Shown here piece by piece: positions 9,099-49,064 of a stretch of 64,000 bases of DNA. This stretch comes from Idiomarina seosinensis (GTDB taxonomy: Bacteria; Pseudomonadota; Gammaproteobacteria; Enterobacterales; Alteromonadaceae): contig NZ_PIQF01000001.1 in assembly GCF_003987275.1 (NCBI RefSeq), positions 124,001-188,000 of the forward strand, read 5' to 3'. The position numbers and the translations under genes are program-made. Under the pieces are notes generated by a model, which did no database searches, was not told the origin of the DNA, and worked only from the letters and a program-made list of their open reading frames with translations. The number at the start of each line of letters is the position of its first letter. Within the stretch, counting starts at the first letter, position 1.

Positions 9099-9932
9099 GT
9101 GACAGATAAAGAGCTCAGTCAGTCGGAATACCAGGAGTTTAGAAAGTTTTTAGAACACCAGTGCGGTATCGTACTTGGTGACAACAAGATGTATCTGGTG
9201 AAAAGCCGTCTAAGCCCGCTAATGTCTCGCTTTGCAATCGACTCGCTGTCGCAGTTGGTTAAAAAGTCCATGCAAATTAGTGAGCGGGCTTTGCGAGCAG
9301 CAGTGATTGATGCCATGACGACCAACGAAACCCTCTGGTTTCGTGATACCTACCCGTTCCAAATTTTAGTCGACCGTGTTTTACCCGAGTTTAAAAATAA
9401 TTCAGGACCGGTAAAAATTTGGTCGTCAGCTTGTTCATCCGGGCAAGAGCCTTATTCTATTGCAATGAGTTATCTTGAATATAAGGCAAAAAAGCTGGGC
9501 GCTTTAAAGGGTGGCATTCGTATCACCGCAACTGATATTTCCAATAAGGTCTTAGAGCAATGCAGTAAAGGTGAATACGATAGTCTTGCTATTGCTCGCG
9601 GTTTGTCTCCAGAACGGCAAAAGAAGTTTTTCACCGCAGGCACCAAACCCGGTGCAATGAAAGTAAAAGATGAAGTGAAAAACTTTGTTCAATTTCGCCA
9701 TTTAAACTTACTCGACAGTTATTCCTTACTCGGCAAATTCGACATTATTTTTTGCCGCAACGTACTGATTTACTTTGCCCCCGACGTAAAGCGGAAAATA
9801 ATTGCCCAATTCCGGCAATCACTGAATCCCGGCGGCTACCTCTTCCTCGGCGCCTCAGAATCGATTTCCGGCCTCACCGAAGATTTTGAAATGATCCGCT
9901 GCAATCCAGGCATCATCTATCGAAGGAAGTAG
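9099..9932 (+). CDS. cheR: CheR, chemoreceptor glutamate methyltransferase
   Basis: A 277-residue S-adenosylmethionine methyltransferase that methylates receptor glutamates. The N-terminal helical CheR domain is residues about 5-60, and the catalytic domain follows, with ETLWFRDTYPF, the SAM-binding KIWSSACSSGQEPYS motif and FDIIFCRNVLIYF. The start is GTG at 9099 behind AGGATACC. The stop codon (TAG) directly abuts the first hairpin unit of the array that fills the gap to flgB. It forms an operon with cheV, and cheB, which reverses its reaction, lies at 45.1 kb. Confidence 0.95.
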   Translation: MTDKELSQSEYQEFRKFLEHQCGIVLGDNKMYLVKSRLSPLMSRFAIDSLSQLVKKSMQISERALRAAVIDAMTTNETLWFRDTYPFQILVDRVLPEFKNNSGPVKIWSSACSSGQEPYSIAMSYLEYKAKKLGALKGGIRITATDISNKVLEQCSKGEYDSLAIARGLSPERQKKFFTAGTKPGAMKVKDEVKNFVQFRHLNLLDSYSLLGKFDIIFCRNVLIYFAPDVKRKIIAQFRQSLNPGGYLFLGASESISGLTEDFEMIRCNPGIIYRRK

Positions 9933-10177
9933 CTTGCGTCTTTGACGCAAGCAGGCTTTTTGGCGCTAACGCGCCGGCTGTTTGCGTGCTCGCTTCGCTT
10001 GCACGCGGCTATTACGTCTTTAACAGCCACAGCGGCCGAAGGCACGCTGTAAAAGGCCGGCGCGAAGCGCAAAAAAGCCCGCCCGCAGGGCGAAAGAACC
10101 GGCGCGAAGCGCCAAACGGCCGCGACTTAGCCGCATATCACCGTGGCGTAAGCCACACCTCTCCGTCGCGAAGCGAC
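9932..10177. repeat. Hairpin-unit array A (mirror array) between cheR and flgB
   Basis: The 302-bp gap 9933-10234 holds no gene; it is filled with about ten short palindromes joined by 8-nt linkers. The left half reads hairpin (9932-9952), GGCTTTTT, GGCGCTAACGCGCC (9962-9975), GGCTGTTT (9976-9983) and a 23-nt hairpin (9984-10006). The right half has the linker in the opposite sense (AACAGCC and variants) between palindromes such as GGCGCGAAGCGCC, CGCCCGCAGGGCG, GTGGCGTAAGCCAC and GTCGCGAAGCGAC (10165-10177). The mirror point is near 10013-10021. Frames that cross it are artefacts of the repeats. Confidence 0.9.
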
Positions 10178-10183
10178 ATTTCT

Positions 10184-10199
10184 TGGCACGATCCCTGCA
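10184..10199 (+). promoter_or_regulatory. Sigma-54 promoter for flgBCDE
   Basis: TGGCACGATCCCTGCA: consensus -24 TGGCACG and a TGC -12 with GG (10185-10186) and GC (10197-10198) ten bases apart. It starts 6 bp after the last hairpin of array A and 51 bp before flgB, so the array occupies the place where enhancer-binding sites would normally be. Confidence 0.85.
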
Positions 10200-10234
10200 T
10201 AATATCTCCCATCGAATCATTGGGAGACGAAAAA

Positions 10235-10633
10235 ATGGCACTTACCATGGATAAACTCCTTGGCATCCAACAGCACACTTTGGGCGTTCGTACCCAACGC
10301 GCTGAGATGATCGCCAATAATATCGCTAACGCCGATACCCCTGGCTACAAAGCCAAAGGGTTAGATTTCCAGCAAGCGTTAAAGCAAGCGCAAAGCGGAA
10401 TGGAAAGCCACAAGCTGGCGCGTACCCACGATAAACATTTTAACGTAGAAATAAATCCAACCGGTCAAGAGAAGTTCCGTATGCCGACGCAGCCGGATAC
10501 TGGCGACGGCAATACCGTTGATGTGCAGTTGGAACAAAACTTGTATGCACAAAATGCATTGGAATATGAAATGACCATGAACTTTCTCGACGGCAAAATC
10601 AGCGGCGTTAAGAAAGCACTTAGTGGCCAATAG
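10235..10633 (+). CDS. flgB: FlgB, proximal rod protein
   Basis: A 132-residue rod subunit. The N-terminal flagellar rod motif is visible in MIANNIANADTPGYKAKGLD. The frame is open further upstream through the hairpin array, but the ATG at 10235, preceded by GGGAGACGAAAAA and downstream of the sigma-54 site, gives the normal family length, so it is taken as the start. FlgB forms the proximal rod with FlgC, FlgF and FliE. It is the first gene of flgBCDE. Confidence 0.96.
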   Translation: MALTMDKLLGIQQHTLGVRTQRAEMIANNIANADTPGYKAKGLDFQQALKQAQSGMESHKLARTHDKHFNVEINPTGQEKFRMPTQPDTGDGNTVDVQLEQNLYAQNALEYEMTMNFLDGKISGVKKALSGQ

Positions 10634-10648
10634 GTGAGGTAACCGACG

Positions 10649-11101
10649 ATGAGCCTATTTAATATCTTTAATGTGTCTGGTTCAGCAATGAGCGCACAAT
10701 CGGTGCGACTCAACACCACTGCCAGTAATTTGGCGAATGCCAACTCGGTCAGTAGTAGTGTTGATGAAACCTACCGCTCTCGTAGCCCCGTTTTTGCAAC
10801 CGCATTGGCGGACGCTCAGGGCAATCAACGGGGCAACAGTCTGACTAACCAGACCCAGGCGGGTCAAGCGGCTGGCGTTAAAGTAATGGGTATTGTCGAG
10901 AGCGACAAGCCGCTGCAAATAGAATACGCGCCCAACCACCCCATGGCAGACGATAAAGGCTACATTTATCGCTCTAACGTTAACACCATGGAGGAAATGG
11001 CCAACATGATTTCTGCTTCACGCTCGTATCAGACAAACGTTCAGGTCGCGGATACCGCAAAAACCATGACTCAACGCCTGCTGCGTTTAGGTCAGGGCTA
11101 A
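10649..11101 (+). CDS. flgC: FlgC, proximal rod protein
   Basis: A 150-residue rod subunit. It has the N-terminal rod signature (TTASNLANANSVSSS) and the C-terminal heptad helix ending in ASRSYQTNVQVADTAKTM, both needed for coiled-coil packing in the axial structure. It starts 15 bp after flgB behind TGAGGTAAC. Exported through the flagellar type III apparatus and assembled with FlgB. Confidence 0.96.
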   Translation: MSLFNIFNVSGSAMSAQSVRLNTTASNLANANSVSSSVDETYRSRSPVFATALADAQGNQRGNSLTNQTQAGQAAGVKVMGIVESDKPLQIEYAPNHPMADDKGYIYRSNVNTMEEMANMISASRSYQTNVQVADTAKTMTQRLLRLGQG

Positions 11102-11114
11102 CAGGAGATAACTG

Positions 11115-11798
11115 ATGGAAGGTGTAAGCAATAACTCCTATATCGACAGGATGAGATGGAAAGAAGGCGAGGGGGCGGAGTATGTTGATCCAGCCGACCA
11201 ACAGCGCCTGGAGCAGGAGGACTTTTTCAAGCTGTTGACTCAACAGTTAAACATGCAGGATCCGACTAAGCCAGCTGACAATGATCAGATGATTGCTCAG
11301 ATGACAAACTTCTCAATGGCAGAAGGGATTTCCGACTTGTCGTCTCAGTTCACGAAGTTTTCGGAGAAGATGACGTCTAACCAGGCCTTGCAAGCTTCGA
11401 CGTTGGTCGGACGCAGTGTTCTGGTGCCAACCAATAAAGCAATGGTTGAAGAAGGTGGAATGGCAAAAGGAATGGTTGCAACACAGCAAACTGCGCAAAA
11501 TGTCCGAATTTCGGTTGAAGACGCTTCAGGTCAAGTTGTTCGAACCATCAATGTCGGTGATATCGATGCTGGAACCCAAGACTTTCAGTGGGATGGCTTA
11601 GACGAGGCCGGCAATCCATTGCCGGAGGGCAATTATACTTTTACCGCTAATGCACGCATAGGAAATAGCAACGAAGAATTACCCTTGCAAATGAACGCGA
11701 CAGTACAAAGCGTCAGCATGGGAGGCGAGCGCGGAATCGTTCTTAATTTAAAAGGGTTAGGTGGCATCAATTTTGCAGATGTTACTGAAATCAGTTAA
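11115..11798 (+). CDS. flgD: FlgD, hook-capping scaffold protein
   Basis: A 227-residue hook cap. The N-terminal region has the conserved FFKLLTQQLNMQDPTKPADN motif; the C-terminal part carries the FlgD Tudor-like and FnIII-type beta domains (WDGLDEAGNPLPEGNYTF). FlgD sits at the growing hook tip and is replaced by FlgK when the hook is done. It lies between flgC and flgE in the sigma-54 operon. Confidence 0.95.
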   Translation: MEGVSNNSYIDRMRWKEGEGAEYVDPADQQRLEQEDFFKLLTQQLNMQDPTKPADNDQMIAQMTNFSMAEGISDLSSQFTKFSEKMTSNQALQASTLVGRSVLVPTNKAMVEEGGMAKGMVATQQTAQNVRISVEDASGQVVRTINVGDIDAGTQDFQWDGLDEAGNPLPEGNYTFTANARIGNSNEELPLQMNATVQSVSMGGERGIVLNLKGLGGINFADVTEIS

Positions 11799-11813
11799 TC
11801 AGTGAGGTGATTT

Positions 11814-13217
11814 ATGTCATTCAATATAGGTTTAAGCGGTATCAATGCGGCACAAAAAGATTTGGATACCACCGCAAATAATATTTCTAATGTGCGCACA
11901 ACGGGTTTTAAACAATCGCGTGCAGAATTTGCTGACGTCTACGCATCAAGTATTTTTAGTTCAGGTAACGCTAAAGTCGGAGATGGTGCATTAACTGCGA
12001 CGGTTGCTCAACAGTTTAGTCAGGGTACATTGGAATTTACAGACAATTCGCTGGATATGGCAATTAGCGGTAACGGATTCTTTGCGACGACTAGTGAACT
12101 TGGCTCGCAGGACTTTACTTACACTAGGTCTGGCGCATTTAAATTAAACAATGAAAGTTTTATTGTAGATAACCAGAACAACTTTTTGCTCGGTTTCCCT
12201 GTGGACAGAGACAGTGGCGCGTTGCAGTCAACAAGCTTAGCGACGGCATCACCAATCCAGATTCCTGATTCTGCAGGAGCGCCGGCATCAACCAATAACT
12301 TGTATCAGTCTTTTAACTTGGATTCCCGTGCACCAGGGGTTTTGGTGGATGAGCCAGGAGCAACCCCACCGATAACTGGAAACAAGTTTGACCCAGAAGA
12401 TCCGACTTCTTATACATCCTCGACGTCTTCGACCATTTATGACTCCCTTGGTGAATCACATGTTGTCACGACATACTATGTAAAACGTGACTCTGAACAA
12501 GCCTCTATCGCTGGTAATACTTGGGATGTGTATACCACCGTCGATAATCAAGCGGTTGATCTTGGAGCTACTGGTACTGGCGCGGAAGCGGGAGTTAATG
12601 CTCCTGACGGAACGCCTGCACAGGGTTATCGTATTCAATTTGATGATTCGGGTAACCCGTTAGGGCCAATAGATACAGATACCGGTTCGACCTTTGCAGA
12701 ACAGTCAATATCGTTGAATGGTGTACTAAGTAATGGTGCAGATCCAACACAACAAGTTAATGTGTTCTTCCGTGATCGGAATGATGAAGAAGGGGACACT
12801 GCTCCGACTCAATTTGCGTCAGACTTTGAAGTGAACTTACTGGAACAGGACGGGAGCACCGTTGGTCGCTTGACTAACTTGGACATCGGTGAGGATGGTT
12901 TAATCCAAGCCAGTTACTCAAACGGCGAAGTTCAGTATTTGGGACAAGTCTCGCTAACCCGCTTTGCCAACGAACAGGGGTTAAGACAAGTAGGTAATAC
13001 GTCTTGGAAGGAAACGCGCGATTCTGGCGAAGCTTTAGCAGGTGCGGCCAATTCGGGTACTTTTGGCGCGATTGAATCTTCTGCGCTGGAAAACTCTAAC
13101 GTTGACCTAACGAAAGAGCTGGTTGATCTAATTGCGGCACAACGGAATTTCCAGGCCAACTCACGGTCGCTGGAAGTAAACAATACGCTAAACCAAACGG
13201 TCTTGCAGATCCGGTAG
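11814..13217 (+). CDS. flgE: FlgE, hook protein
   Basis: A 467-residue hook subunit. The N-terminus MSFNIGLSGINAAQKDLD and TTANNISNVRTTGFKQSR are the axial-protein signature, and the C-terminal ELVDLIAAQRNFQANSRSLE completes the D0 coiled coil. The centre is the surface-exposed variable part. At 467 residues it is somewhat longer than the enterobacterial hook protein (about 400). Its TAG stop at 13215-13217 directly abuts the first hairpin of array B, and a terminator inside that array ends the flgBCDE transcript. Confidence 0.96.
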   Translation: MSFNIGLSGINAAQKDLDTTANNISNVRTTGFKQSRAEFADVYASSIFSSGNAKVGDGALTATVAQQFSQGTLEFTDNSLDMAISGNGFFATTSELGSQDFTYTRSGAFKLNNESFIVDNQNNFLLGFPVDRDSGALQSTSLATASPIQIPDSAGAPASTNNLYQSFNLDSRAPGVLVDEPGATPPITGNKFDPEDPTSYTSSTSSTIYDSLGESHVVTTYYVKRDSEQASIAGNTWDVYTTVDNQAVDLGATGTGAEAGVNAPDGTPAQGYRIQFDDSGNPLGPIDTDTGSTFAEQSISLNGVLSNGADPTQQVNVFFRDRNDEEGDTAPTQFASDFEVNLLEQDGSTVGRLTNLDIGEDGLIQASYSNGEVQYLGQVSLTRFANEQGLRQVGNTSWKETRDSGEALAGAANSGTFGAIESSALENSNVDLTKELVDLIAAQRNFQANSRSLEVNNTLNQTVLQIR

Positions 13218-13484
13218 CTCGCGCTTTTAGCGCGAGGAGCTAGTGCCTTTGGTACGGCTGTTTGCCACTGCGTGGCGGCCATTTGCGACTTTGTCGCGGC
13301 TATTGTTCGGCTCGCTTCGCTTGCCGAAGGCTGTTTAAACATAATGAAAGGGCTTGCTGTGCAAGCCCTTTTCTTTTTCATCTTTTCCCTAACAGCAGCG
13401 TGCAAGCGAAGCGAGCACGCCAACAAGCCTCGGCGTAGCCGGAAAAAGCAGTGCCGCAGGCACAAACAGCCACCACCCAGTGGT
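13217..13484. repeat. Hairpin-unit array B (mirror array) between flgE and flgF
   Basis: The 336-bp gap 13218-13553 has no gene. The left half holds palindromes such as CTCGCGCTTTTAGCGCGAG, GCCACTGCGTGGC and CGACTTTGTCG, joined by GGCTGTTT-like linkers and ending in GGCTGTTT. The centre is a strong terminator. The right half has the linker reversed (AACAGC, CAACAAGCC, AAACAGCC) between a 23-nt hairpin (13398-13420), TCGGCGTAGCCGG, GTGCCGCAGGCAC (13451-13463) and ACCACCCAGTGGT (13472-13484). The 23-nt hairpin at 13398 is the exact reverse complement of the one at 9984-10006 in array A. Confidence 0.9.
13347..13378 (+). terminator. Rho-independent terminator after flgBCDE, at the centre of array B
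   Basis: AAAGGGCTTGC pairs with GCAAGCCCTTT around a TGT loop, followed by TTCTTTTT. It separates the flgBCDE and flgFGHIJ transcripts and lies at the mirror point of the hairpin array. Confidence 0.85.
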
Positions 13485-13496
13485 AAACCCCAAACT

Positions 13497-13512
13497 TGGC
13501 ACGATCTCTGCA
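13497..13512 (+). promoter_or_regulatory. Sigma-54 promoter for flgFGHIJ
   Basis: TGGCACGATCTCTGCA with GG (13498-13499) and GC (13510-13511) ten bases apart. It is nearly identical to the flgB promoter and again lies just after the last hairpin unit (12 bp). Confidence 0.85.
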
Positions 13513-13553
13513 TTAAATACCCCAGACGACAAATTTTTGGCTGGAGGTCAGCT

Positions 13554-14297: not shown

Positions 14298-14335
14298 CAG
14301 AAGCTTTAGTTAAAGGCGGAAACAGGAGAAACACC

Positions 14336-15124: not shown

Positions 15125-15140
15125 CAGAGTAGGTGACGTT

Positions 15141-15815: not shown

Positions 15816-15829
15816 GAGGGACTGAAACG

Positions 15830-16936: not shown

Positions 16937-17903
16937 TGGTGCCGGAAGCCTCCAGGGCGGCAGCGCAATGTTTGAGCTTGCCTCACAACGGCAAGCTACC
17001 TCGGCGATGGATACCCATGCGCTCGATGGCTTGCGTAAACAAGCCTTTGGTGACAATAAAGAGGCCGCTTTACGTGAAGCGGCTGAGCAGTTCGAAGCGA
17101 TATTTCTGAATATGGTGCTGGGTAGCATGCGTAAAGCCAACGATGTGTTTGCTAAAGACAACCCGTTAAACAGCCGCTATACCCAGATGTATCGTGATAT
17201 GCATGACCAGCAACTGACCTCAGAATTATCGTCACAAGGCTCGCTGGGCCTGGCTGATATGATGGTCAAGCAATTGAGCGGACAGGCGGGACTGGATAAA
17301 TCTGAGCGTTTTGGTGCTAATTTGGGTGAAGCCAAAATGCCGGTTAATAAACCTGAAGTGAGTGATCAAGGCGGCATTGATGCAGGTCTTTATTATGGCG
17401 GTAAACGTGTTAACCAGGTCAGGTTAGACGAAGGCGAAGCACGCTTTCAGTCACCACAGGATTTTATTGCTGCGATAAAACCTCAGGCCGAGAAAATAGC
17501 CGCAGAAAGCGGAATTGACGCTAACGTACTAGTTGCGCAGGCAGCATTAGAAACCGGCTGGGGCCAGCGGATTATTCCCGGTCGCCACGGTGGTTCCAGT
17601 AATAACCTGTTTAATATCAAAGCGGATCAACGCTGGGGCGGCGATCAGTCTCATGTCAGTACCCTGGAGTTTGACGGCAACGTGGCGAAAAAAGAACGCG
17701 CAGCTTTCCGCAGTTATCAGAACGTGGAACAGAGCTTGCAGGATTATGTGGACTTTATAAAAGGACATCCGCGCTATCAGCAAGCATTGCAAGTAGCCGA
17801 TGATCCAAAGCAGTACGCAGAACAGCTACAGCAGGCCGGTTATGCCACCGATCCACAGTACGCGGCGAAAATTCAGGCGGTAATGAATAAGATAGCGAAG
17901 TAG
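16917..17903 (+). CDS. flgJ: FlgJ, rod-cap scaffold and peptidoglycan hydrolase
   Basis: A 328-residue bifunctional protein. The N-terminal rod-scaffold domain (residues about 40-115) has [15 protein letters not shown] and [13 protein letters not shown]; the C-terminal glucosaminidase domain (about 165-325) has [16 protein letters not shown] with likely catalytic Glu212 and [13 protein letters not shown]. It cuts a hole in peptidoglycan for the growing rod. The start is GTG at 16917, within flgI, behind CAGGAGCC. The TAG stop is followed at once by a single hairpin unit like the one after cheR. Confidence 0.95.
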
Positions 17904-17926
17904 CTTGCGTCCCTGACGCAAGACAG
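17903..17926. repeat. Single hairpin unit after flgJ
   Basis: CTTGCGTC (17904-17911) pairs with GACGCAAG (17915-17922) around CCT, followed by ACAG. Both arms are identical to those of the first unit after cheR (9933-9951), including the position directly behind an AAG-TAG gene end; only the loop differs. There is no T-run, so it is not a classical terminator. Confidence 0.75.
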
Positions 17927-26037: not shown

Positions 26038-26087
26038 GGTGAACTCCTAAAATTCGTTAACTTATGCTTGTCTTGTAAAGGCCGCAG

Positions 26088-26115
26088 ATTATGCCTTTTC
26101 TGACGGAAAAGTCAA
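26088..26115 (-). promoter_or_regulatory. Sigma-70 promoter for rpsT
   Basis: On the minus strand TTGACT (26115-26110), 16 nt, then CATAAT (26093-26088), about 50 bp before the rpsT start. A strong vegetative promoter, as expected for a ribosomal protein gene. Confidence 0.8.
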
Positions 26116-26144
26116 CAGCTTTGATGGAAAAAGATTAGGTTTTT

Positions 26145-26262
26145 GCTCGCTGCGCTCACGGCTTTTTGTCGGCTTACGCCGACGGCCGTTTGTCGCTAAC
26201 GCGACGGCTGTTGGCAACCTGCCTTCGGCGGTTGCGGCTGTAGGTCTCGTTTTTAACGAGAC
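26145..26262. repeat. Hairpin-unit array, left half, overlapping the 3' end of the four-helix-bundle gene
   Basis: Units on the plus strand: an imperfect hairpin (26145-26159), GTCGGCTTACGCCGAC, GTCGCTAACGCGAC, a 22-nt hairpin (GCAACCTGCC...GGTTGC) and GTCTCGTTTTTAACGAGAC (26244-26262), joined by GGCTTTTT, GGCCGTTT, GGCTGTTG and GGCTGTAG. The last unit carries the stop codon of the neighbouring gene in its loop. The segment 26205-26239 is an exact 35-bp inverted copy of 26705-26739. Confidence 0.9.
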
Positions 26263-26600
26263 TGTTGCAAATTCTTAACTAAGTTGTGCAGAGATATTTG
26301 GATTCTGGTGTTGGTATTAAGCCATTTTGAAATATCTGGGTGAATGACCCAATTTAAATCCTTGCCAATTTTTAACTGTGTTTCTAATTCGGCACTGGAG
26401 CCAATAGCGTAGTAAAGTATTCGCCTTCTATCTGCAGCGGTATCCCGCACCATAGCTTCAGCAATATTACTGGGAACAGATAAAGCACTGCGTCCGACTT
26501 GGTCTTTAAAGAAATAATGTTTACATGAACTGACGTCTTTCATGATGACGACAGCGAGTGCCAATGACTCACGCCAGACCCAAAGTTTGTGATAGTTCAT
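26253..26600 (-). CDS. Four-helix-bundle protein (23S rRNA intervening-sequence family)
   Basis: A 115-residue protein of the four-helix-bundle family (S23/IVS-type, PF05635-like), recognisable from the start YHKLWVWRESLALAVVIMKD and the central VGRSALSVPSNIAEAMVRD and SSAELETQLKIGKDL. Members occur inside intervening sequences of 23S rRNA genes and as stand-alone genes of unknown function; a related fold, Avd, serves diversity-generating retroelements. Here it stands alone between two halves of a mirror-image hairpin array, flanked by exact 35-bp inverted repeats, and its last codons (QQSR, stop) lie within a hairpin unit. This context suggests insertion as a unit, which is inference. Confidence 0.85.
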   Translation of the reverse strand: MNYHKLWVWRESLALAVVIMKDVSSCKHYFFKDQVGRSALSVPSNIAEAMVRDTAADRRRILYYAIGSSAELETQLKIGKDLNWVIHPDISKWLNTNTRIQISLHNLVKNLQQSR

Positions 26601-26704
26601 AAATCACCCAAACTCAAAAGACTAGCAACCAATTGTAATAACAACGCAAATTTGCGATATTCCTCACACCATCAGTACCTTTTTTACCGAAGTACCACCA
26701 TAAT

Positions 26705-26781
26705 AGCCGCAACCGCCGAAGGCAGGTTGCCAACAGCCGCGCCAAAGGCGCAAACAGCCGTTGGCGTAGCCAACAAATAGC
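26705..26781. repeat. Hairpin-unit array, right half, before murJ
   Basis: Units GCAACCGCC...GGTTGC (22 nt), GCGCCAAAGGCGC and GTTGGCGTAGCCAAC (26760-26774), joined by CAACAGCC, AAACAGCC and ending in AAATAGC, all opposite in sense to the left half. The array ends directly at the murJ ribosome binding site AGAAGGA (26782-26788). The remaining 100 bp up to the four-helix-bundle gene show no recognisable site. Confidence 0.9.
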
Positions 26782-26796
26782 AGAAGGATTTGTCAG

Positions 26797-28353: not shown

Positions 28354-29207
28354 AAATACGGCCCCTTCGGCGCCCCGACGCAGCGGAGGAAAACGGATGG
28401 TCCGGCCCCATCGGCAAGCCGCGATCTGAATTCGCATCTACGATGGTGCCAAATATCCCACCGTCGGCAAGCCAACGGGTACCCACGATTTGAATTTATT
28501 CCGGGGTGGCCGGCAGTTCCGGTTTTTGAACAACGTTGGTGTTAAATGCTCTGATGTCCATGGCTACCGGGATCCGCCTTCAGATCGTGGGTACCCTTCG
28601 GCTCGCCGAAGGGGCAGGAGGTCATCGGCAACCTCGATGGTGGGATCCGGGGCACCTCTTTTCGGATTCCGGGATGCTCGCAATTGCATTCCAATTCGAT
28701 ATCGCGGATGCGAATAGGGGCATTCCATAGCGGCAACGGAGGAAAACGAATAATCCGCACCCATCGGCAAGCCAATGGCTACCCACGATCTGATCAATAT
28801 CCGGGATGCCGCCAGCGACGGGATTTTGAACACCATCGCTGTTAAAACCTCTGCATTTATCCGTTCCGCAATACAAATTCATATCTTAGGTACCCTTCGG
28901 CTCGCCGAAGGGGCAGGAGCTCATCGGCTACCTCGATGGTGGGATCCGGGGCACCTCTTTCGGGCTTCCGCAATACCCCTTCAGATCGTAGGTACCCTTC
29001 GGCTCGCCGAAGGGGCAGGAGGTCATCGGCTACCTCGATGGCGGGATCCGGAGAGCCCCTTTTCGGATTCCCGGATGCTCGCAATGGCATTGCTATTCGG
29101 CAACCTCGATTCGGATATGGGCGGGCAAAAGGTGTTCCGCGGGCATTATTTCAGTTATAATCGCGCCTTTCAGATAACCAATTTAGCTGGGTACGGAATC
29201 GCCAGGC
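28354..29207. repeat. Non-coding tract of long mosaic repeats between murJ and ribF
   Basis: No gene is supported in these 854 bp; short frames on both strands repeat the same peptides and have no ribosome binding site. Two repeat types alternate. Type 1 is about 100 bp, with the hairpin CCCTTCGGCTCGCCGAAGGG in GGTACC...GGGGCAGGAG and then ATCGGCNACCTCGATGG and GGGATCCGG; copies begin near 28578, 28880 and 28978. Type 2 is about 105 bp (CCATCGGCAAGCC, TACCCACGAT, TTTTGAACA, GTTAAA); copies begin near 28463 and 28763, with a partial copy near 28391. Types 2+1 thus repeat with a 300-bp period. Confidence 0.85.
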
Positions 29208-30242
29208 ATGGAACTTATTCGCGGGACACACAATTTGCGTGCCAAACACTTTGGTGAAGACACCGGTTGTGTGCTGACTATTGGTAATTTTGACGGCGTG
29301 CATTTAGGTCATCAGGCGGTATTACAGCAGGTACGCAGCAAAGCTGAAGAGCTGGGCGTCCCGTCCGCGGTGATGACGTTTGAACCGCAACCGCAGGAAT
29401 TATTCCAGCCTGAAAAAGCACCGGCGAGACTGACTAACTGGCGTGAAAAATATTTGGCACTAAAAAGCCAGCAGCTTGATCACCATATCGTTATTGAATT
29501 TAATAAAAAATTTGCCAGCCAGCCGGCACGTGAATTTATTGAAAAGATTCTGGTTGATAAGCTGGCGGTAAAATTTTTGGTGGTCGGTGATGACTTCCGT
29601 TTTGGCTATAAACGCGAGGGTGACTTTGAGCTGCTGCAAAAGGCCGGTAAAGAACTCGGGTTTGAAGTAGTCGACACCCGTAGCTATCGGCAGCAGCAAC
29701 AGCGAGTGAGCAGTACCGCCATACGTGAGGCTTTGGACGATGGTGACTTTGACAGCGCTGAACAAATGCTCGGGCGGCCGTACCGGATGGCGGGCAAAGT
29801 CGTTCACGGCCGTAAGAACGGCCGCACCATCGGCTTTCCAACCGCCAACGTCCCGTTAAAACGATTAAAAAGCCCATTGCACGGCGTGTTTGCCGTAAAG
29901 GTTTTTTTAGAAAATGGTGTAACCGACGGCAAGCAAAGCGAGCCGTCAAACAGCCTCGGCGAAGCCGAAAAAAGCCGCCCCGAAGAGGCCAACAGCCGTC
30001 ACGGCAAAGCCGTGACATACCACGGTGTTGCCAACCTCGGAACGCGGCCGACGCTAAACGGTGATGAAGTGCAACTGGAAGTGCATTTATTTGATTTTTC
30101 AGGCAACCTGTACGGTCAGCAGATGACGGTAACCCCCGTTGCCAAATTGCGTGCCGAGCAACGCTTTGCGTCGCTTGACCACCTTAAACAACAGATAGAA
30201 CAAGATGCCGCTCGCGCCAAGCAGCTTTTAGCCCAAGCGTAG
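29208..30242 (+). CDS. ribF: RibF, bifunctional riboflavin kinase / FAD synthetase, with repeat-encoded insertion
   Basis: A 344-residue enzyme that makes FMN and then FAD. The N-terminal nucleotidyltransferase has TIGNFDGVHLGHQAVL and the SSTAIREAL motif; the C-terminal riboflavin kinase has GRKNGRTIGFPTANVPL and YHGVANLGTRPT. E. coli RibF has 313 residues; the extra length is a stretch of about 31 residues (about 240-270, TDGKQSEPSNSLGEAEKS and on) placed between the strands that normally run straight from VFAVKVFLENG to YHGVANLG. That stretch is coded by four hairpin units. The essential motifs are intact, so the gene is probably functional. Confidence 0.95.
   Translation: MELIRGTHNLRAKHFGEDTGCVLTIGNFDGVHLGHQAVLQQVRSKAEELGVPSAVMTFEPQPQELFQPEKAPARLTNWREKYLALKSQQLDHHIVIEFNKKFASQPAREFIEKILVDKLAVKFLVVGDDFRFGYKREGDFELLQKAGKELGFEVVDTRSYRQQQQRVSSTAIREALDDGDFDSAEQMLGRPYRMAGKVVHGRKNGRTIGFPTANVPLKRLKSPLHGVFAVKVFLENGVTDGKQSEPSNSLGEAEKSRPEEANSRHGKAVTYHGVANLGTRPTLNGDEVQLEVHLFDFSGNLYGQQMTVTPVAKLRAEQRFASLDHLKQQIEQDAARAKQLLAQA
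29925..30016 (+). repeat. Four hairpin units in frame inside ribF
   Basis: A 23-nt hairpin (29925-29947), AAACAGCC, TCGGCGAAGCCGA (29956-29968), AAAAAGCC, GCCCCGAAGAGGC (29977-29989), CAACAGCC and a 19-nt hairpin GTCACGGC-AAA-GCCGTGAC (29998-30016). The frame reads the linker as Asn-Ser. The first hairpin differs by one base from one inside flhF (39041-39063). Confidence 0.92.
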
Positions 30243-38765: not shown

Positions 38766-40172
38766 GTGAAGATTAAACGTTTTTTTGCAGAAGATATGCG
38801 CCGCGCATTATTACAGGTTAAAGAAGCCTTAGGTCCGGACGCGGTGATTATGTCCAACAAAAAAGTAAACGGCGGTATTGAAATTGTCGCCGCCGTCGAC
38901 CCCGACGCCCAACAACCCGAGCCTGCTCCCACGCCGGAACCGGCGACTGCGCAGCAGGAGCCCGCACCAGCCAGCTCACTAGCCGAATTACTGCAACGCC
39001 AGAACCCTCGTGTCGAAGACACGAGCTACGGTTCACAGCCGACGGCAAGCGAAGCGAGCCGTCAAACAGCCGTACCGGAGGCACAAACAGCCGTACCGGA
39101 GGCACAAACAGCCGTACCGGAGGCACAAACAGCCGTACCGGAGGCACAAACAGCCGCTCCGCAGGAGCACACAGCCCATGCGCAGCATGAAATGGCCCAT
39201 GCGCAGCATGACCAAATCCCCGAGCACGTCTCCGGCGGTAGCGCCGAAGAGATTGCTGACCTAAAAGCTCAGATTCGTGGCATCAAAGACTTGTTGCAAC
39301 ATCAGCTAAGCGGCCTGATGAAGCAAGAAATTGAACGCGAAGAGCCGATCCGCGCGATGTTGACCAAGCGCCTGATGGGCATGGGGCTGAGTGAACGTAT
39401 TGCCGACCAGATTGCGTGCTTTATCCCCGAAGGTGGTGACGATGATGATAGCTGGGAGCAATGTCTGCAATTATTAGAAGGTCAGCTTAATACCACAGCT
39501 GACGATATTTTGACGCGCGGTGGTGCGGTGGCACTGGTTGGTCCAACCGGTGTCGGTAAAACCACTACCATTGCAAAGTTAGCGGCTCGTTATGCGCAAC
39601 GTCACGGGGCCGATAAAGTTGCATTAGTAACCACGGACACTTTCCGTATCGGCGCCAGTGAACAATTACAGACTTATGGTCGTATTATTGGGTGTCCGGT
39701 TAAAGTTGCTAACAACGCCAAAGAACTGGCTGATGCGCTGCTCACCCTGCGCGATAAGTCGTTAATATTGATTGATACGGCAGGTATGGGACAGCGTGAT
39801 AAAAGGCTCAGTGATCAACTCGCGACGTTATTACATAATAGTCGTCTGCGAATTCGGCCATATCTGGTATTATCAGCTACATCGCAAACTCAGGTTTTAA
39901 ATGATGCGGTTAAGCAATTTAAAACGCTGCCGCTCAGCGGTTGTATTTTTACCAAGCTAGATGAGTGTTTAAGCCTGGGTGAGAGTATTAGTGTTGCGGT
40001 AGAGCAAGGTATGGCAGTGAGTTATTTAACCAATGGCCAGCAAGTACCAGAAGACATTAAAGTAGCCGACGCTCATTATTTGGTGAGCGAGGCGGAACGC
40101 TTGTATGACAAAAGCATTTGTTCGACCTTGTCAGAAATGCCAAAATCATATGGGCATACTAGTATCAACTAA
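38766..40172 (+). CDS. flhF: FlhF, SRP-type GTPase for polar flagellum placement, with repeat-encoded linker
   Basis: A 468-residue GTPase that marks the cell pole for flagellar assembly. The N-terminal KIKRFFAEDMRRALLQVKEA and the G domain with GPTGVGKTTTIAKLAARYA (near residue 260), TTDTFRIGASEQLQTY and DTAGMGQRD are intact. Start is GTG at 38766. The disordered linker between the N-terminal basic region and the NG domain is partly made of hairpin units: residues about 81-148 include four QTAVPEA repeats and two MAHAQH-like repeats. Linkers here vary widely in the family, so the insertion is probably harmless. Confidence 0.95.
   Translation: MKIKRFFAEDMRRALLQVKEALGPDAVIMSNKKVNGGIEIVAAVDPDAQQPEPAPTPEPATAQQEPAPASSLAELLQRQNPRVEDTSYGSQPTASEASRQTAVPEAQTAVPEAQTAVPEAQTAVPEAQTAAPQEHTAHAQHEMAHAQHDQIPEHVSGGSAEEIADLKAQIRGIKDLLQHQLSGLMKQEIEREEPIRAMLTKRLMGMGLSERIADQIACFIPEGGDDDDSWEQCLQLLEGQLNTTADDILTRGGAVALVGPTGVGKTTTIAKLAARYAQRHGADKVALVTTDTFRIGASEQLQTYGRIIGCPVKVANNAKELADALLTLRDKSLILIDTAGMGQRDKRLSDQLATLLHNSRLRIRPYLVLSATSQTQVLNDAVKQFKTLPLSGCIFTKLDECLSLGESISVAVEQGMAVSYLTNGQQVPEDIKVADAHYLVSEAERLYDKSICSTLSEMPKSYGHTSIN
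39007..39210 (+). repeat. In-frame hairpin-unit array inside flhF, with four identical 21-bp units
   Basis: A 19-nt hairpin (39007-39025), a 23-nt hairpin (39041-39063), then four exact copies of AAACAGCC plus GTACCGGAGGCAC (39064-39084, 39085-39105, 39106-39126, 39127-39147), then GCTCCGCAGGAGC (39156-39168) and two copies of CATGCGCAGCATG (39177-39189, 39198-39210). Each 21-bp unit codes for Gln-Thr-Ala-Val-Pro-Glu-Ala. Confidence 0.95.
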
Positions 40173-41803: not shown

Positions 41804-41837
41804 TTTGTGGTAATCGAGAGCCTCAGTGGAGGGAGCT

Positions 41838-42221: not shown

Positions 42222-42227
42222 AGGGCG

Positions 42228-42977: not shown

Positions 42978-42990
42978 GAGCAGCAATCGC

Positions 42991-45120
42991 ATGAGCTTTG
43001 AGATGGACGAAGACATTCTTCAGGACTTTCTGATAGAAGCAGGAGAAATCCTGGAGCAATTATCAGAGCAGCTGGTAGAGCTGGAAAATGATCCTGAAAA
43101 TAAGGATTTGCTGAATGCCATTTTCCGTGGTTTCCATACCGTGAAAGGTGGCGCTGGCTTCTTGTCAGTAACTGCATTAGTCGACACCTGTCATGGTGCC
43201 GAGAATGTGTTTGACACGCTGCGTAACGGTCAACGCACGGTTACTTCTGAGCTCATGGACATTATCCTGCAAGCACTGGATACGATTAACGCCCAGTTTG
43301 CGCAATTGCAGGCTCGTGAAGAACCCGAAGCCGCGGCAGATGACTTGCTGCAGGCATTGCATCAGTTGAGTCAACCAGAAAGCGAAGATGAGCAGCCGGT
43401 ATCACCAGCCGACGAGCCAGAGCAGCAAGCAGTAGAACCTGAAACTGAAGCTGAACAGTCAGACAGCGGTGATGGTGGTATTGACGAAATTCAAGATGAT
43501 GAATTTGAAGCATTACTGGATCAACTGCACGGAGAGGGCAAAGGCCCTGGTGCAGAAAGCAGCGCAAGTAAGTCCGAACCAGATTCGGATGAGATAACCG
43601 ATGATGAATTTGAAGCCTTGTTGGATGAACTGCATGGTCAGGGCAAAGCGCCGGTCAGTGCAGAAAAGCAGCAACAAGAGGAAAAGGCTAAAGCTCAGAA
43701 AAAAGCCGATGATGACGAAATAACCGACGACGAGTTTGAGTCGTTGTTGGATGATTTGCACGGTAAAGGCAAAGCGCCGACCAAAGATGCTGCCGAAAGT
43801 CAGCAGCCGGCCCCGAAAAAATCAGAGCCTAAAAAGCCCGAACCTAAGAAACCAGAGCCGAAAAAGCAAGAACCGAAAAAGCCGGAACCTAAACAGCCAG
43901 ATCAGAAACCTGCAGCTAATAAGCCCGCAGCACCGACGCCACCGCCGGCAGAAACTACTGTTCGGGTCGACACCAAGCGTCTCGATGAAATCATGAATAT
44001 GGTCGGCGAGCTGGTGTTAGTCAGGAACCGGCTGCTGAGCCTTAGCAATAGTGAAGAAGGCAAAGGCGATGAGATGGGTAAAGCCATTTCTAACCTGGAC
44101 GTAGTGACCGGTGATTTGCAGGGCGCAGTCATGAAAACCCGGATGCAACCGATTAAGAAAGTTTTTGGTCGCTTCCCGCGGGTTGTGCGCGACTTAGCAC
44201 GTAGTCTGAAAAAAGAAATTAATTTAGAGATGCACGGTGAAGATACCGATCTGGACAAGAACTTAGTTGAAGCTCTGGCCGATCCATTGGTGCATTTGGT
44301 CCGTAACTCAGTCGACCACGGCATCGAGATGCCTGATGACAGGGTTGCTAAAGGCAAGCCCCGGCAAGGGACTGTCAGTTTATCGGCGTCGCAGGAAGGC
44401 GACCACATTATGTTGTCAATTAAAGACGACGGCGCCGGTATGGACGCGGAAAAGCTAAAAGGTATCGCGATTAAACGCGGTATTTTGGATCAAGACAGCG
44501 CTGCCAGAATGAGCGATGAAGACGCCTATAATTTGATTTTTGCGGCAGGTTTTTCGACCAAAGATCAAGTATCGGATATCTCTGGTCGTGGTGTTGGCAT
44601 GGACGTGGTGAAAACCAAAATTAGCCAGCTTAACGGTAGTGTTAAAATTAAATCGGAGTTGGGTAAAGGCACCGAACTGCTGATTAAAGTGCCGCTGACG
44701 CTGGCTATTTTGCCAACATTGATGGTCGCGGTAAAAGAACAGACGTTCGCGTTACCACTGGCAGTGGTCAGCGAAATTATCGACTTAGACATGAGCCGCA
44801 CGAATACCGTAGACGGCCAGTTGACATTGATTGTACGAAATCGCGCTATTCCATTGTTCTTCCTTGAGCACTGGTTGGTTCGTAACCCCGATCGCTCAAC
44901 CCGCAACGAGACTGGGCATGTTGTGGTCGTGCAAATTGGTAACCAGCAAGTTGGTTTCGTAGTGAACGCTCTTATCGGACAAGAAGAAGTGGTGATTAAG
45001 CCGCTGGATAAACTATTACAGGGCACGCCTGGAATGGCGGGTGCAACCATCACCAGTGATGGTGGTATCGCCTTGATTATTGATGTTCCGAGCATGCTGA
45101 AGTATTACGCTAAACGTTAA
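42991..45120 (+). CDS. cheA: CheA, chemotaxis histidine kinase, with a triple acidic peptide repeat
   Basis: A 709-residue kinase. P1 phosphotransfer domain with His49 in [13 protein letters not shown]; then an acidic segment (about 160-270) holding three copies of a [16 protein letters not shown] motif; a Lys-Pro-Glu linker ([14 protein letters not shown]); then dimerisation ([20 protein letters not shown]), ATPase ([27 protein letters not shown]) and a C-terminal CheW-like domain. No ordinary P2 domain is evident; the repeated motifs may take its place in binding CheY or CheB. That is inference. Confidence 0.97.
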
Positions 45121-45134
45121 CGGACACCCTTTCA

Positions 45135-46310: not shown

Positions 46311-46312
46311 CT

Positions 46313-47098
46313 ATGGTGGTCTGGACGGTTGCCAATCAAAAAGGTGGGGTAGGAAAAACCACCACCACTGTGGCACTGGCCGGATTGCTGGCAGAGCGCG
46401 GTCAACGCGTACTTTGTATCGATACCGATCCGCACGCCTCATTAACCTATTACTTTGGTTTCGACTCTGAAGAACTGCCAACCAGTGCGTTCGATGTGTT
46501 TTTACTGGGCAAAGAAATTAGCCGGGACAAAGTAAAACAGTCGATTGTGCCGAGTGAGGTAAAAAACCTGGATGTATTGCCGTCGACAATGGCGCTGGCA
46601 ACACTTGATCGGAAATTAGGCAGTCAGGGCGGCATGGGCCTTATCCTAAAACGAACGTTGGCAACGCTCGAGCAGGATTACGACTATGTGTTGATTGATG
46701 TACCACCGGTGCTCGGTGTACTGATGGTTAATGCTCTGGCCTGCTGCCATCGGGTACTGATCCCGGTGCAAACTGAGTTTCTGGCGTTGAAAGGCCTGGA
46801 GCGCATGATGCGGACGCTTAAGCTGATCCAAAAGTCACGCGGTCAGGATTATCGTTACACCATTATCCCAACGTTATACGATAAGCGCACCCGAGCTTCT
46901 TTAGATACTTATAAAAAGTTGGTCGAGCGATACGGGCGCTCAGTTTGGAACGGTATGATCCCCATCGACACTAAATTCCGTGATGCCAGTAATCAGCAAT
47001 TACCACCGTCATTGTATGCGCCGAAAGCGAGGGGCGTATTGGCTTATCAATCGTTACTTACCCATTTACAGCAGCTTGCTGAACAGGATCTGTCATGA
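46313..47098 (+). CDS. parC: ParC-like ParA-family ATPase of the polar chemotaxis cluster
   Basis: A 261-residue ParA-type ATPase with Walker A VANQKGGVGKTTTTVALA (residues 6-23), the LCIDTDPHASLTYYFG loop and DYVLIDVPPVLG. Placed between cheB and a CheW-domain gene, it matches ParC, which places chemoreceptor arrays at the cell pole in Vibrio and Shewanella-type bacteria. It starts 2 bp after cheB. A plasmid-type partition role is unlikely since no parB or parS is nearby. Confidence 0.88.
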   Translation: MVVWTVANQKGGVGKTTTTVALAGLLAERGQRVLCIDTDPHASLTYYFGFDSEELPTSAFDVFLLGKEISRDKVKQSIVPSEVKNLDVLPSTMALATLDRKLGSQGGMGLILKRTLATLEQDYDYVLIDVPPVLGVLMVNALACCHRVLIPVQTEFLALKGLERMMRTLKLIQKSRGQDYRYTIIPTLYDKRTRASLDTYKKLVERYGRSVWNGMIPIDTKFRDASNQQLPPSLYAPKARGVLAYQSLLTHLQQLAEQDLS

Positions 47099-47898
47099 GT
47101 GGAAGCAGTGATAAGGCAATGATGGAATACCTCAATGCATTGCTTGAGGAAGAACATAAGCCAGTTGCTGACTTTGATGACGAGCCGGTAAAGCGTTTGC
47201 TCAGTCAGGCAACGATTTTAGAAATTGAGCCTGCGGCCGATAATGAAGAAGTTCAGGTTCCCGAAATAGCGGTAACCACACCGGTAGCGGAACCCGTTGA
47301 AACTGTTGAAGAGCCTGAACAAGTCGAAGAAATTGAACAACTTGAACAGCCGCTAGAGACCGCCGAACAGTCTGTAGCAGCGGATGAGTCGCTGGCGACG
47401 CAACCTGATGCAATGGAAGAATATCAGCAGGGCGATTTTCAGGCGTTGTTCTTTCGGGTTGCCGGGCTAACCTTAGCGGTTCCGTTAAAGAGCTTAGGTG
47501 GCATCCACACCATTGGCAAAATCAGTCCTATTTTCGGCAAACCGAAATGGTTCAAGGGAATAATGACTGAGCGTGACGAAAAACTGCAAGTGGTCGATAC
47601 AGCGCGCTGGGTGATGCCTGAAAAGTTAACGCCTGAGCTGCAAGAGAAAATTAACTATCAGTATTTGATCACACTGAGTGATAGTCCCTGGGGCTTGCTG
47701 TGCGAGGAGCTGGTAGATAGTGAGCCGCTGCAGCCAGAGGCTATACAATGGCGTCAGGGAGTGAATGAAAAACGTCCTTGGTTGGCAGGTGTGGTTCGCC
47801 AGCGTATGTGTGCATTGCTGGATGTTAACGCATTGATTACACTGCTAGATAACGGTTTGGGACATATCCAGTCCGAACCATCAGAAAAACCGGAGTGA
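47095..47898 (+). CDS. parP: ParP-like CheW-domain protein
   Basis: A 267-residue protein with a long Glu/Val/Pro-rich acidic N-terminal half (about 1-115) and a C-terminal CheW-like domain (about 118-260: QALFFRVAGLTLAVPLKSLG, WGLLCEELVDSE). This layout and the 4-bp overlap with parC fit ParP, which links ParC to CheA and keeps arrays at the pole. The gene name is assigned from context. Confidence 0.82.
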   Translation: MSGSSDKAMMEYLNALLEEEHKPVADFDDEPVKRLLSQATILEIEPAADNEEVQVPEIAVTTPVAEPVETVEEPEQVEEIEQLEQPLETAEQSVAADESLATQPDAMEEYQQGDFQALFFRVAGLTLAVPLKSLGGIHTIGKISPIFGKPKWFKGIMTERDEKLQVVDTARWVMPEKLTPELQEKINYQYLITLSDSPWGLLCEELVDSEPLQPEAIQWRQGVNEKRPWLAGVVRQRMCALLDVNALITLLDNGLGHIQSEPSEKPE

Positions 47899-47902
47899 GA
47901 GC

Positions 47903-48406
47903 ATGACGACGGAAAACCGTAACGTAAACAAACAAGTTGAAGCAGAAGGTAATGACGAAGTTTTACAGTGGGTTACTTTTCAGCTAGAACAGGAAACCTA
48001 TGGTATTAATGTAATGCAGGTGCAAGAAGTTCTGCGTTACAGCGAAATTGCGCCGGTTCCCGGAGCCCCGAGCTACGTGTTGGGTATTATTAACTTGCGT
48101 GGCAATGTGGTGACGGTAATTGATACGCGTCTGCGTTTTGGTTTGCCCCAGGCGGAAGTCACCGACAATACGCGGGTAGTGATCATCGAGTCTGAAAAGC
48201 AAGTGATTGGAATTCTGGTCGATAGTGTTGCCGAAGTGGTTTACCTGAAAAAGTCAGAAATTGACACAGCGCCAAATGTGGGCACTGATGAAAGCTCGCG
48301 CTTTATTCAGGGCGTCAGTAACCGTGAAGGTGAGCTGTTGATTTTGGTCGATCTGGATAAAATGTTAACCGACGAAGAGTGGGACGAAATCTCACGTCTA
48401 AGTTAA
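47903..48406 (+). CDS. cheW: CheW, receptor-kinase coupling protein
   Basis: A 167-residue single CheW domain: QWVTFQLEQETYGINVMQVQ, LGIINLRGNVVTVIDTRLRF and ILVDLDKMLTDEEW are the conserved parts. It joins chemoreceptors to CheA in the signalling array. It follows parP by 4 bp and closes the chemotaxis section. Confidence 0.96.
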   Translation: MTTENRNVNKQVEAEGNDEVLQWVTFQLEQETYGINVMQVQEVLRYSEIAPVPGAPSYVLGIINLRGNVVTVIDTRLRFGLPQAEVTDNTRVVIIESEKQVIGILVDSVAEVVYLKKSEIDTAPNVGTDESSRFIQGVSNREGELLILVDLDKMLTDEEWDEISRLS

Positions 48407-48429
48407 GTCGGATTTAAGGAAACCAAATC

Positions 48430-48900
48430 ATGCTCTCAGTATCGTTGCTGGTAGCTATAGCTGCGTTAGTGTTGGCTTTGCTGGCACTGACCGCGGTCAT
48501 TATTACCTCTCGCAAACAGGCGCAGATCATCGAGCGTCAGCAACAGCGCTTGATGATGTTAACCGAGAGCGCTAGTGAGGTATTGGCCTTAAAACAACAG
48601 CTAAACAGCAGCGGTAATGACTTCGCTCAAACTGAACAATTACAGCAGAGTCTAGAGCAAAGCCTTAAGCATCAGCTTGAGCAGCAAAGTGAACGGTTAC
48701 AACAACAAGTTCGGCAGTTAACTGAAGAACAACATGCTTTGCAGCAGAAGTTTGAACAACTTTCCCAACAAGATCCTGGCGCGAAACTCTACCAACGTGC
48801 TGCAAAGTTGGTGGCCACTGGTGCCAGTGTTGAAGAAATTATGCAGGAATGCGATCTACCCCGCGCGGAAGCCGAATTAATTGCCGCCATGCGGAAGTAA
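48430..48900 (+). CDS. DUF2802-type membrane-anchored coiled-coil protein
   Basis: A 156-residue protein: an N-terminal membrane helix (residues 3-28), a long Gln/Glu/Leu coiled coil (about 30-115) and a short C-terminal helix-turn-helix-like domain (YQRAAKLVATGASVEEIMQE, CDLPRAEAELIAAM). This layout is that of DUF2802, found after cheW in many polar flagellates. Function is not known to me; position suggests a structural or regulatory role at the flagellated pole. Array E follows its stop. Confidence 0.8.
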   Translation: MLSVSLLVAIAALVLALLALTAVIITSRKQAQIIERQQQRLMMLTESASEVLALKQQLNSSGNDFAQTEQLQQSLEQSLKHQLEQQSERLQQQVRQLTEEQHALQQKFEQLSQQDPGAKLYQRAAKLVATGASVEEIMQECDLPRAEAELIAAMRK

Positions 48901-48911
48901 AGCACTTGTTT

Positions 48912-49064
48912 GCATCTGTGATGCGGCTATTTCGCCCTGCGGGCGGGCTGTTTATGCGCTCGCTTCGCTGGCGCAAGCTGTATAGACACTAACTGTTACG
49001 ATTTTCGCCACCTAACAGCCTTGGGCAAAGCCCAAAAACAGCCGCAACGAAGGTGCAAATAGCT
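48912..49064. repeat. Hairpin-unit array E (mirror array) between the DUF2802 gene and flhX
   Basis: Left half: GCATCTGTGATGC (48912-48924), GGCTATTT, CGCCCTGCGGGCG (48933-48945), GGCTGTTT, a 21-nt hairpin (48955-48975), AGCTGTAT. Centre: about 30 bp of plain sequence (48984-49013). Right half: AACAGCC, TTGGGCAAAGCCCAA (49021-49035), AAACAGCC, GCAACGAAGGTGC (49044-49056), AAATAGCT. Linkers change sense across the centre. It lies between two convergent genes and has no clear T-run. Confidence 0.9.

Follow-up and report, generated by a model that had tools for sequence, protein, structure and literature searches.

What are the short hairpins that recur, joined by a nearly constant linker, along a 64,000-nt stretch of the Idiomarina seosinensis genome (contig NZ_PIQF01000001.1, positions 124,001-188,000; the window), and how do their arms stay matched while their sequence varies? 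In six places of the window, all between or within protein genes, hairpins are joined by AAACAGCC or its near variants. Arrays of this kind flank most genes for PF05635-family proteins in the group of Idiomarina genomes that carries them, which suggests an undescribed type of selfish DNA element. Below, G000 is the window's own genome (2.69 Mb), in which the window is C1:124001-188000, and other G numbers denote genus-mates. Ten window genes were scanned with Pfam; gene names such as cheR, flgE, rpsT, tuf, pepA and purA are our assumptions, based on sequence and gene order.

The first-pass annotation had described units with a fixed linker and variable palindromes, and this description holds. 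A strict parser, which requires a linker with at most two mismatches and perfect arms, accepts 24 units in the window (9962-10113, 13264-13484, 26168-26774, 29956-30016, 39041-39189 and 48912-49035), and about 40 are recognized by eye once imperfect, longer and decayed ones are added. The linker is also in excess over shuffled sequence: the window contains 16 copies of AAACAGCC where 3.14 would be expected, none of 100 shuffles reached that count, and 13 of the 16 copies adjoin array units (exceptions at 17168, 41089 and 43891). On the AAACAGCC strand the common unit reads N4-C, loop GNA, G-N4 (13 nt), followed by the 8-nt linker, with a period of 21. The predominance of 13-nt palindromes with a 3-nt loop was likewise correctly noted: among the 126 units accepted in 15 loci of three genomes, 62 have a length of 13 nt, and the 74 triloops comprise GCA (31), GAA (23), GTA (12), GGA (2) and others (6), that is, GNA in 68 of 74 on the linker strand, with a C-G closing pair in 72 of the 74. 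In most of the 21-23-nt units of these loci the inner part is constant (GCCGAAGGCA or AAGCGAAGCGA-like) and the outer arms vary; these two longer types are an addition to the earlier description. The stem is not constant within the family, as 25 distinct 5-nt arms occur among 70 perfect 13-nt units.

The link to a gene, absent from the first-pass annotation, lies at the gap between rpsT and murJ, where a 115-aa PF05635 protein is encoded at the centre of a cluster. A search with the G003 relative of this protein found seven places in four of the 19 genus genomes (two in G000, three in G003, one each in G005 and G018), and all four genomes are array carriers. All seven proteins belong to PF05635, the five array-flanked ones scoring above the Pfam cut-off. 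At least two array units lie within 450 bp of five of the seven genes; in the background, drawn from 600 kb of G000 and G003, 55 of 5580 positions have as many that near, and 13 of the 5580 have units on both sides. The binomial chance of five in seven is 1.9e-9; two of these five genes were already known when the test was made, and among the other five of the seven, three have arrays. First-family units stand on both sides of the genes at G000:150256 (three left, three right), G003:643108 (three left, six right) and G018:44815 (one left, three right, with linkers ACACAGCC and CCCCAGCC). Units of a second family, with linker GCCNNGCAA, accompany the genes at G005:86580 (three left, two right) and G003:914982 (three left, none right). 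No array units were found within 450 bp of the genes at G000:14720 and G003:892750. The protein groups match the linker: family 1 (support 0.973), family 2 (0.914) and no array (0.993). The family-1 gene occupies three different places, namely the rpsT-murJ gap in G000, the other side of murJ in G003, and a site elsewhere in G018. Because five of the seven related genes sit at arrays, the gene is counted as part of the proposed element; the majority of clusters hold no PF05635 gene. Neither viral contigs (135 pattern stretches, none confirmed) nor phages yielded a PF05635 relative.

Intergenic clusters are two-sided: to the left of a centre the units lie on the minus strand, to its right on the plus strand, and the GNA strand reads outward, a layout that the earlier description had not included; one-sided clusters are few (L059, L061). 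Clusters occur in co-directional, divergent and convergent gaps and inside genes, with in-frame arrays in RibF and FlhF. The features of the window are as follows; the name CheR is tentative.

9962..10014, minus strand: left, outward-facing units of the cheR-flgB gap (FlgB by PF00460), a GGCGC hairpin and the long unit GCGTGC-AAGCGAAGCGA-GCACGC.
10021..10177, plus strand: right units of the cheR-flgB gap, long ACAGCG-GCCGAAGGCA-CGCTGT, then short GCGC, CGCCC, GGCGC, decayed GCGAC/GCCGC, GTGGC and GTCGC; outer linkers decayed, most hairpins still intact.
13256..13336, minus strand: left units of the flgE-flgF gap, GCCAC, GCGAC and TTCGGC-AAGCGAAGCGA-GCCGAA.
13347..13376, no strand: terminator-like stem-loop at the centre of the flgE-flgF cluster, also in G008, G009, G013 and G018, there without arrays.
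13390..13484, plus strand: right units of the flgE-flgF gap, GCGTGC-AAGCGAAGCGA-GCACGC, TCGGC (imperfect), GTGCC and ACCAC.
26160..26243, minus strand: left units of the rpsT-murJ gap, GTCGGC, GTCGC and GCAACC-GCCGAAGGCA-GGTTGC.
26253..26600, minus strand: PF05635-family gene (23S rRNA-intervening sequence protein, four-helix bundle, 115 aa), centre of the rpsT-murJ cluster.
26701..26782, plus strand: right units of the rpsT-murJ gap, GCAACC-GCCGAAGGCA-GGTTGC, GCGCC and GTTGGC.
29925..30016, plus strand: in-frame array in the riboflavin kinase part of ribF, GACGGC long unit, TCGGC, GCCCC (imperfect) and GTCACGGC.
39041..39210, plus strand: in-frame array in flhF, GACGGC long unit, four identical imperfect GTACCGGAGGCAC units, GCTCC, CATGC and CATGC.
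48912..48976, minus strand: left units of the gap 48900-49341, GCATC, CGCCC and a long AGCGAAGCGA-type unit.
49013..49064, plus strand: right units of the same gap, TTGGGC, GCAAC/GGTGC (imperfect), with linker variant AAATAGCT at the end.

The rpsT-murJ gap (window 26038-26796) is a hotspot. Arrays occupy it in three of the 19 genomes, and in eight it is bare (168-235 bp). It holds other sequence of 1.5-2.6 kb in G008, G009, G013 and G018, and a pair tentatively named as nucleotidyltransferase and HEPN-like in G001, G002, G010 and G016.

The arrays are confined to one Idiomarina group: they are rich in G000, G003 and G005, with ribF arrays in two more genomes. A two-unit covariance model, which comprises only 13-nt units with the AAACAGCC-type linker, found 19, 18, 23 and 1 places in G000, G003, G005 and G009 among the 19 genus genomes (E <=0.01). 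Under stricter filters only G000, G005 and G009 matched among 147 family genomes (E <=0.001, 40 candidates scored per genome) and only G000 among 295 order genomes (E <=0.0001, 20 candidates scored per genome), with no match outside Idiomarina among these candidates. A pattern scan of 60 genomes gave matches in 16, 13 of which had only 1 to 3, about the level of the reversed-pattern control. Viral contigs gave no exact pattern match, and plasmids and phages no blastn match for one array used as query. Fourteen stretches of genome contigs matched the pattern, seven from Idiomarina aquatica and seven others. Of the seven others, which look like chance, L069, L074, L076, L078, L081 and L082 are without parser units and L071 is a different repeat. 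In L071, from a Cystobacterineae metagenome-assembled genome, AAACAGCC is followed by GGGCCGCAGGCCC in three copies 113 bp apart, with one AAACCGCC copy on the other strand; its layout is unrelated.

Within the group the same sites recur. In five of the 19 genomes (G000, G003, G005, G009 and G018) RibF contains, at one spot, an in-frame array or array-like insert that differs from genome to genome; the remaining 14 have the short form (DNA of 18 genomes and the protein row of all 19 were compared). By eye, the FlhF array is present in G000 and G005, and the same spot of G003 shows hairpins like repetitive extragenic palindromic (REP) sequences and a second-family array. The second linker, GCCNNGCAA, makes arrays of the same type; read by eye, their usual unit is a 15-nt hairpin with a period of 24, and there is again a longer unit whose inner part is fixed. 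A blind scan for neighbouring triloop hairpins 6-10 nt apart (non-overlapping loci, any linker) gave 14 pairs in G000 (10 first family, 4 other), 35 in G003 (16 first family, 8 GCCNNGCAA, 11 other), 20 in G005 (18 first family, 1 GCCNNGCAA, 1 other) and 4 in G009 (2 first family, 2 other), with none in G013 and G018 and 0 or 1 in block-shuffled sequence. A possible third linker, CTANNCC-like with 11-nt hairpins, was seen by eye at flgE-flgF of G003 and G005 and received no support from a plain pattern count.

The nuclease subunit SbcD (TIGR00619) is encoded in seven of the 19 genus genomes (G000, G003, G005, G008, G009, G013 and G018), which form one side of a split in the RibF-FlgE-FlgD tree (support 0.999) and include all five array carriers; G008 and G013 have SbcD and no covariance-model match. 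Loss of SbcCD as a cause of the arrays was rejected, as the opposite is seen, SbcD being present in all five carriers (the search was for SbcD only). Because the holders are a single branch, the overlap of SbcD and arrays is possibly a coincidence.

The hairpins exceed what chance would give. The pattern matches 15 times in G000 and its reversed control not at all. In 400 kb of the genome's own background the strict parser found no array and only 10 scattered matches, one a pair around AAACAGCT without GNA loops. Hairpins tipped by C-GNA-G with arms of at least 5 number 20.3 per 100 kb in the window versus 4.5 in the same background, and none occurs in 24 loci (129 kb) of 12 genus-mates outside the array group. 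The clusters also clump. Nine of the 10 in G000 lie within 25 kb of another, as do eight of the 11 in G005 and four of the seven in G003; uniform draws matched this in 0, 20 and 534 of 20000 cases, respectively (G003 and G005 sizes rounded, one G005 contig entered as 200 kb, truly 216 kb). The tuf copies and gene context may contribute to this clumping.

That the arms change together with pairing kept, as had been claimed, is borne out where the hairpin is not demanded. Any 13-mer between two linkers with at most one mismatch was taken, which gave 36 distinct sequences: 25 perfect hairpins, 10 with one bad pair and 1 non-hairpin. Their arm positions are Watson-Crick paired in 167 of 180 cases, with 4 G-T and 9 mismatched, versus 53% after shuffling the 3' arms. 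At two linker mismatches the same test, diluted by chance matches, gives 273 of 420 (shuffled 35%). A covariation count over 26 chosen two-unit pieces (99.2% paired, score 0.913 vs 0.164) was set aside in favour of this test because parser selection feeds it.

Corresponding clusters of G003 and G005 differ by a clean 23-nt unit indel, by loop and linker changes, and by hairpins swapped whole between kept linkers. At two such loci, nine gapless units (49 pairs) show no one-sided and four both-sided changes, three of the four in one swapped unit, and the linkers show five changes in 72 nt. Over a hand-picked set of 17 units at corresponding sites (93 pairs), two both-sided and two one-sided changes were counted, where about 0.01 both-sided would be expected if the arms changed independently; both-sided changes beyond independent mutation are one feature of template-switch products. 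One both-sided change swaps an amino acid in FlhF. Thus the arms at corresponding sites are inherited, and both decay and joint change occur. The earlier statement that only the spacer is conserved is accordingly true between units and fails between species at one site, where arms are kept. Divergence of arms without compensation in relatives, named beforehand as refuting the idea, was not seen in simple form, and one-sided decay was seen too. Of the two processes that had been proposed, copying of one arm from the other gains support from the equal numbers of both-sided and one-sided changes, the altered FlhF residue and the whole-hairpin swaps; selection for the hairpin could act as well. 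Between units, arm likeness is equal for adjacent units and units at different sites (2.37 and 2.37 of 5). Same-arm pairs between sites number 122 versus 55.6 expected, reached by none of 2000 column shuffles, and share loops no more than others (39 of 122 vs 611 of 1950). By eye, G005 has mirror-image arrays with GCGCC, GCTGC long, TCGGC and GCGGAC on both sides, and the cores at the pep clusters are inverted; both suggest copying in inverted orientation.

The explanation we favour, at a little short of an even chance, is a family of palindromic selfish elements whose full copies encode the PF05635 protein, most copies being gene-less, with arms matched by template switching. A full copy would be a PF05635 gene between two outward-facing hairpin arrays serving as element ends, and most copies would have lost the gene, leaving arrays around a short centre. 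During DNA synthesis the linker strand may fold into C-GNA-G mini-hairpins; the nascent end could then switch template to its own other arm and rewrite it, so that arms are matched and their sequence is free. The linker would act as a short homology for hairpin transfer between arrays, and the PF05635 protein may bind the hairpins and help the spread; no benefit to the cell would be required. Several published observations fit these steps. GNA mini-hairpins with G-C pairs are described as extraordinarily stable in DNA (passages of PMC4686876), in rRNA genes template switching is described as creating and repairing stems (excerpts of PMC8794818), and arm conversion is proposed for coding palindromes of Nematomorpha mitochondria (excerpts of PMC6649704). 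Intervening sequences of 23S rRNA, called selfish and bounded by terminal inverted repeats, encode PF05635 proteins; the excerpted text gives these proteins no known function and proposes a mobility role for the intervening-sequence ORF (PMC4990558).

Unlikely, though to be weighed first among the alternatives, is that replication errors alone (fold-back template switching and slippage) grow the arrays, the PF05635 gene being a passenger of the same gene-poor places. Most clusters are without the gene, and both-sided changes and the slippage copies in FlhF are within reach of such errors. Several further observations weigh against the selfish-element explanation. The rpsT-murJ array of G005 flanks a PF01909 nucleotidyltransferase gene instead, that of G003 holds no gene, and other species have other small genes there, which leaves room for the gene being a passenger at a hotspot. 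The two family-2 genes stand beside the same neighbour gene in two species (by eye) and therefore represent one insertion, and the one in G003 has units on one side only. Six distant relatives of the protein on cyanobacterial plasmids show no arrays, with 0-3 hairpins on each side. An empty site similar enough for an insertion to be read was not found; the inverted layout of the arrays is seen, and the empty sites are too diverged for reading a target-site duplication. As to the arms, 4 of 13 units at the two G003/G005 loci are gapped and were left unscored; the 93-pair set, made by hand, favours kept arms, and one typed pair of unequal length, differing on one side, was dropped from it. The tuf paralogues of G000 show one one-sided and no both-sided change in seven units, and in FlhF four identical imperfect units were copied with the mismatch unmended. 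Recurring arms do not support recent whole-unit copying, because their loops are not shared more. The folding parameters used score the linker and opposite strands equally and so do not bear on strand preference. Three-nucleotide loops are rarer among instantaneous compensations (3.52 vs 6.11%), which weighs against triloops favouring switching, as far as the excerpted figures of PMC8794818 go. What speaks for the gene as part of the element is its presence at arrays in five of seven cases versus 1% of positions, in three or more separate places, with protein groups that match the linker families.

It is rather improbable that the hairpins act as RNA (stability, pausing or RNase sites), with pairing kept by selection through ordinary compensatory mutation. 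Pairing is indeed kept in all contexts, both-sided changes occur, and PF05635 is known from RNA-level inserts cut by RNase III (excerpts of PMC4990558). However, single bad pairs show no G-T excess (4 of 10), clusters stand in gaps of all three orientations and inside genes, the outward two-sided layout places the GNA sense of only one array in any transcript, and the FlhF change costs an amino acid.

Slightly less probable still is a REP family or bacterial interspersed mosaic element (BIME) moved by a REP-associated tyrosine (Y1) transposase (RAYT). Y1_Tnp matches are present in 11 of the 19 genus genomes, including G000, G003, G005 and sister species, four of the five GTAG hairpins of the window are at arrays, and REPs can be clustered and intragenic (passages of PMC3733652). 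Yet the array units are without the GTAG tag, essential for cleavage in the tested systems according to parts of PMC8266576; the G000 RAYT gene is flanked by its own GTAG-CCTTCGG repeats; and Y1 genes are also present in G004, G007, G008, G013, G014, G015 and G018, where the model finds no array. Addition of units by a reverse transcriptase from a linker-bearing RNA template is very improbable, since, even if a constant linker with fresh arms looks like templated addition and PF05635-like proteins accompany reverse transcriptases in some systems, an RVT_1 match is absent in G000 and G003, two of the three array-rich genomes, which largely refutes an enzyme of this type.

REP-like repeats are also present. 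GTAG REP-like hairpins lie at arrays at window positions 9933, 13218, 26244 and 39025, FlhF of G003 apparently holds in-frame REP pairs (L153), and a 102-bp tandem repeat at 28864-29051 includes a hairpin similar to the GTAG-CCTTCGG repeats of the genome's own RAYT gene (L223). In several genus-mates each RAYT gene has a REP type of its own on its flanks (GTCGCGCA, GTCGCGT, CCTGACA and CCTGTTGC stems), which makes these pairs a neat set for REP evolution. A further tandem repeat of 15-45 bp is found at 43813-43908, in a CheA-like gene.

The earlier annotation recognized no named family, and we found none: Rfam has no match in the window above the gathering threshold, and the literature searched, which covered few subscription papers, describes neither such arrays nor PF05635 genes located in them. 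The nearest known kinds are REP-RAYT pairs and rRNA intervening sequences. The latter have the same protein family (S23p/PF05635) and are also palindromic, sporadic and called selfish, with inverted-repeat ends; the arrays differ in position, being intergenic or within protein genes and, at the places seen, outside 23S rRNA (23S genes were not inspected), and in having ends made of several hairpins with a constant linker and variable arms. GTAG REPs and BIMEs resemble the arrays as short palindromes between and within genes, clustered, with inverted pairs, stems varying from family to family, and a protein family that goes with its particular repeat type. They differ in that the array units are flanked by AAACAGCC variants, without a GTAG (or CGTC) foot tag, that the linker is constant and the stem changes from unit to unit in one array, that the partner gene encodes a four-helix bundle, not a Y1 transposase, and that the G000 RAYT is flanked by repeats other than those of the arrays. 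CRISPR arrays similarly alternate constant and variable parts at a fixed period, but with a repeat of 24-48 bp and unique spacers, whereas here the constant part has 8 nt and the variable part is a palindrome. Rickettsia palindromic elements are conserved in sequence as families, whereas Idiomarina arrays conserve only the linker. The likeness to the Rickettsia elements, mentioned in a passage of PMC3733652, is in palindromic inserts within protein genes. The contrast with REPs drawn in the first-pass annotation was overstated, as GTAG-tagged REPs, in the part of PMC3733652 that treats them, likewise join a fixed tag to stems that vary between families and subsets. Stems attributed to template switching in rRNA (PMC8794818) and Nematomorpha mitochondrial palindromes (PMC6649704) share matched arms, both-sided changes and occurrence inside genes; in the excerpted accounts they are single hairpins, in contrast to the tandem Idiomarina arrays with a shared linker.

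A bolder reading, which we offer tentatively as a minority possibility, is that PF05635 four-helix-bundle proteins drive a palindrome-building selfish element of a new kind, each subgroup with its own linker (AAACAGCC-type or GCCNNGCAA). New units would obtain fresh arms when a 3' end located at a C-GNA-G mini-hairpin turns back on itself, is extended by copying the sequence upstream and reconnects at the linker, and 23S rRNA intervening sequences would be one branch of these elements, caught in rRNA stem-loops.

In these Idiomarina genomes the usual rule of bacterial palindromic repeats is reversed, as the spacer is kept and the palindrome varies with pairing still kept. Dozens of natural replicas allow a test of selection versus template switching as the source of matched arms, a question that is open for rRNA stems. 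The in-frame arrays of RibF and FlhF, different in sister species at one spot, make DNA-level and protein-level effects separable. Finally, PF05635 proteins are tied here to a DNA element outside rRNA genes, so that their proposed role in mobility becomes testable.

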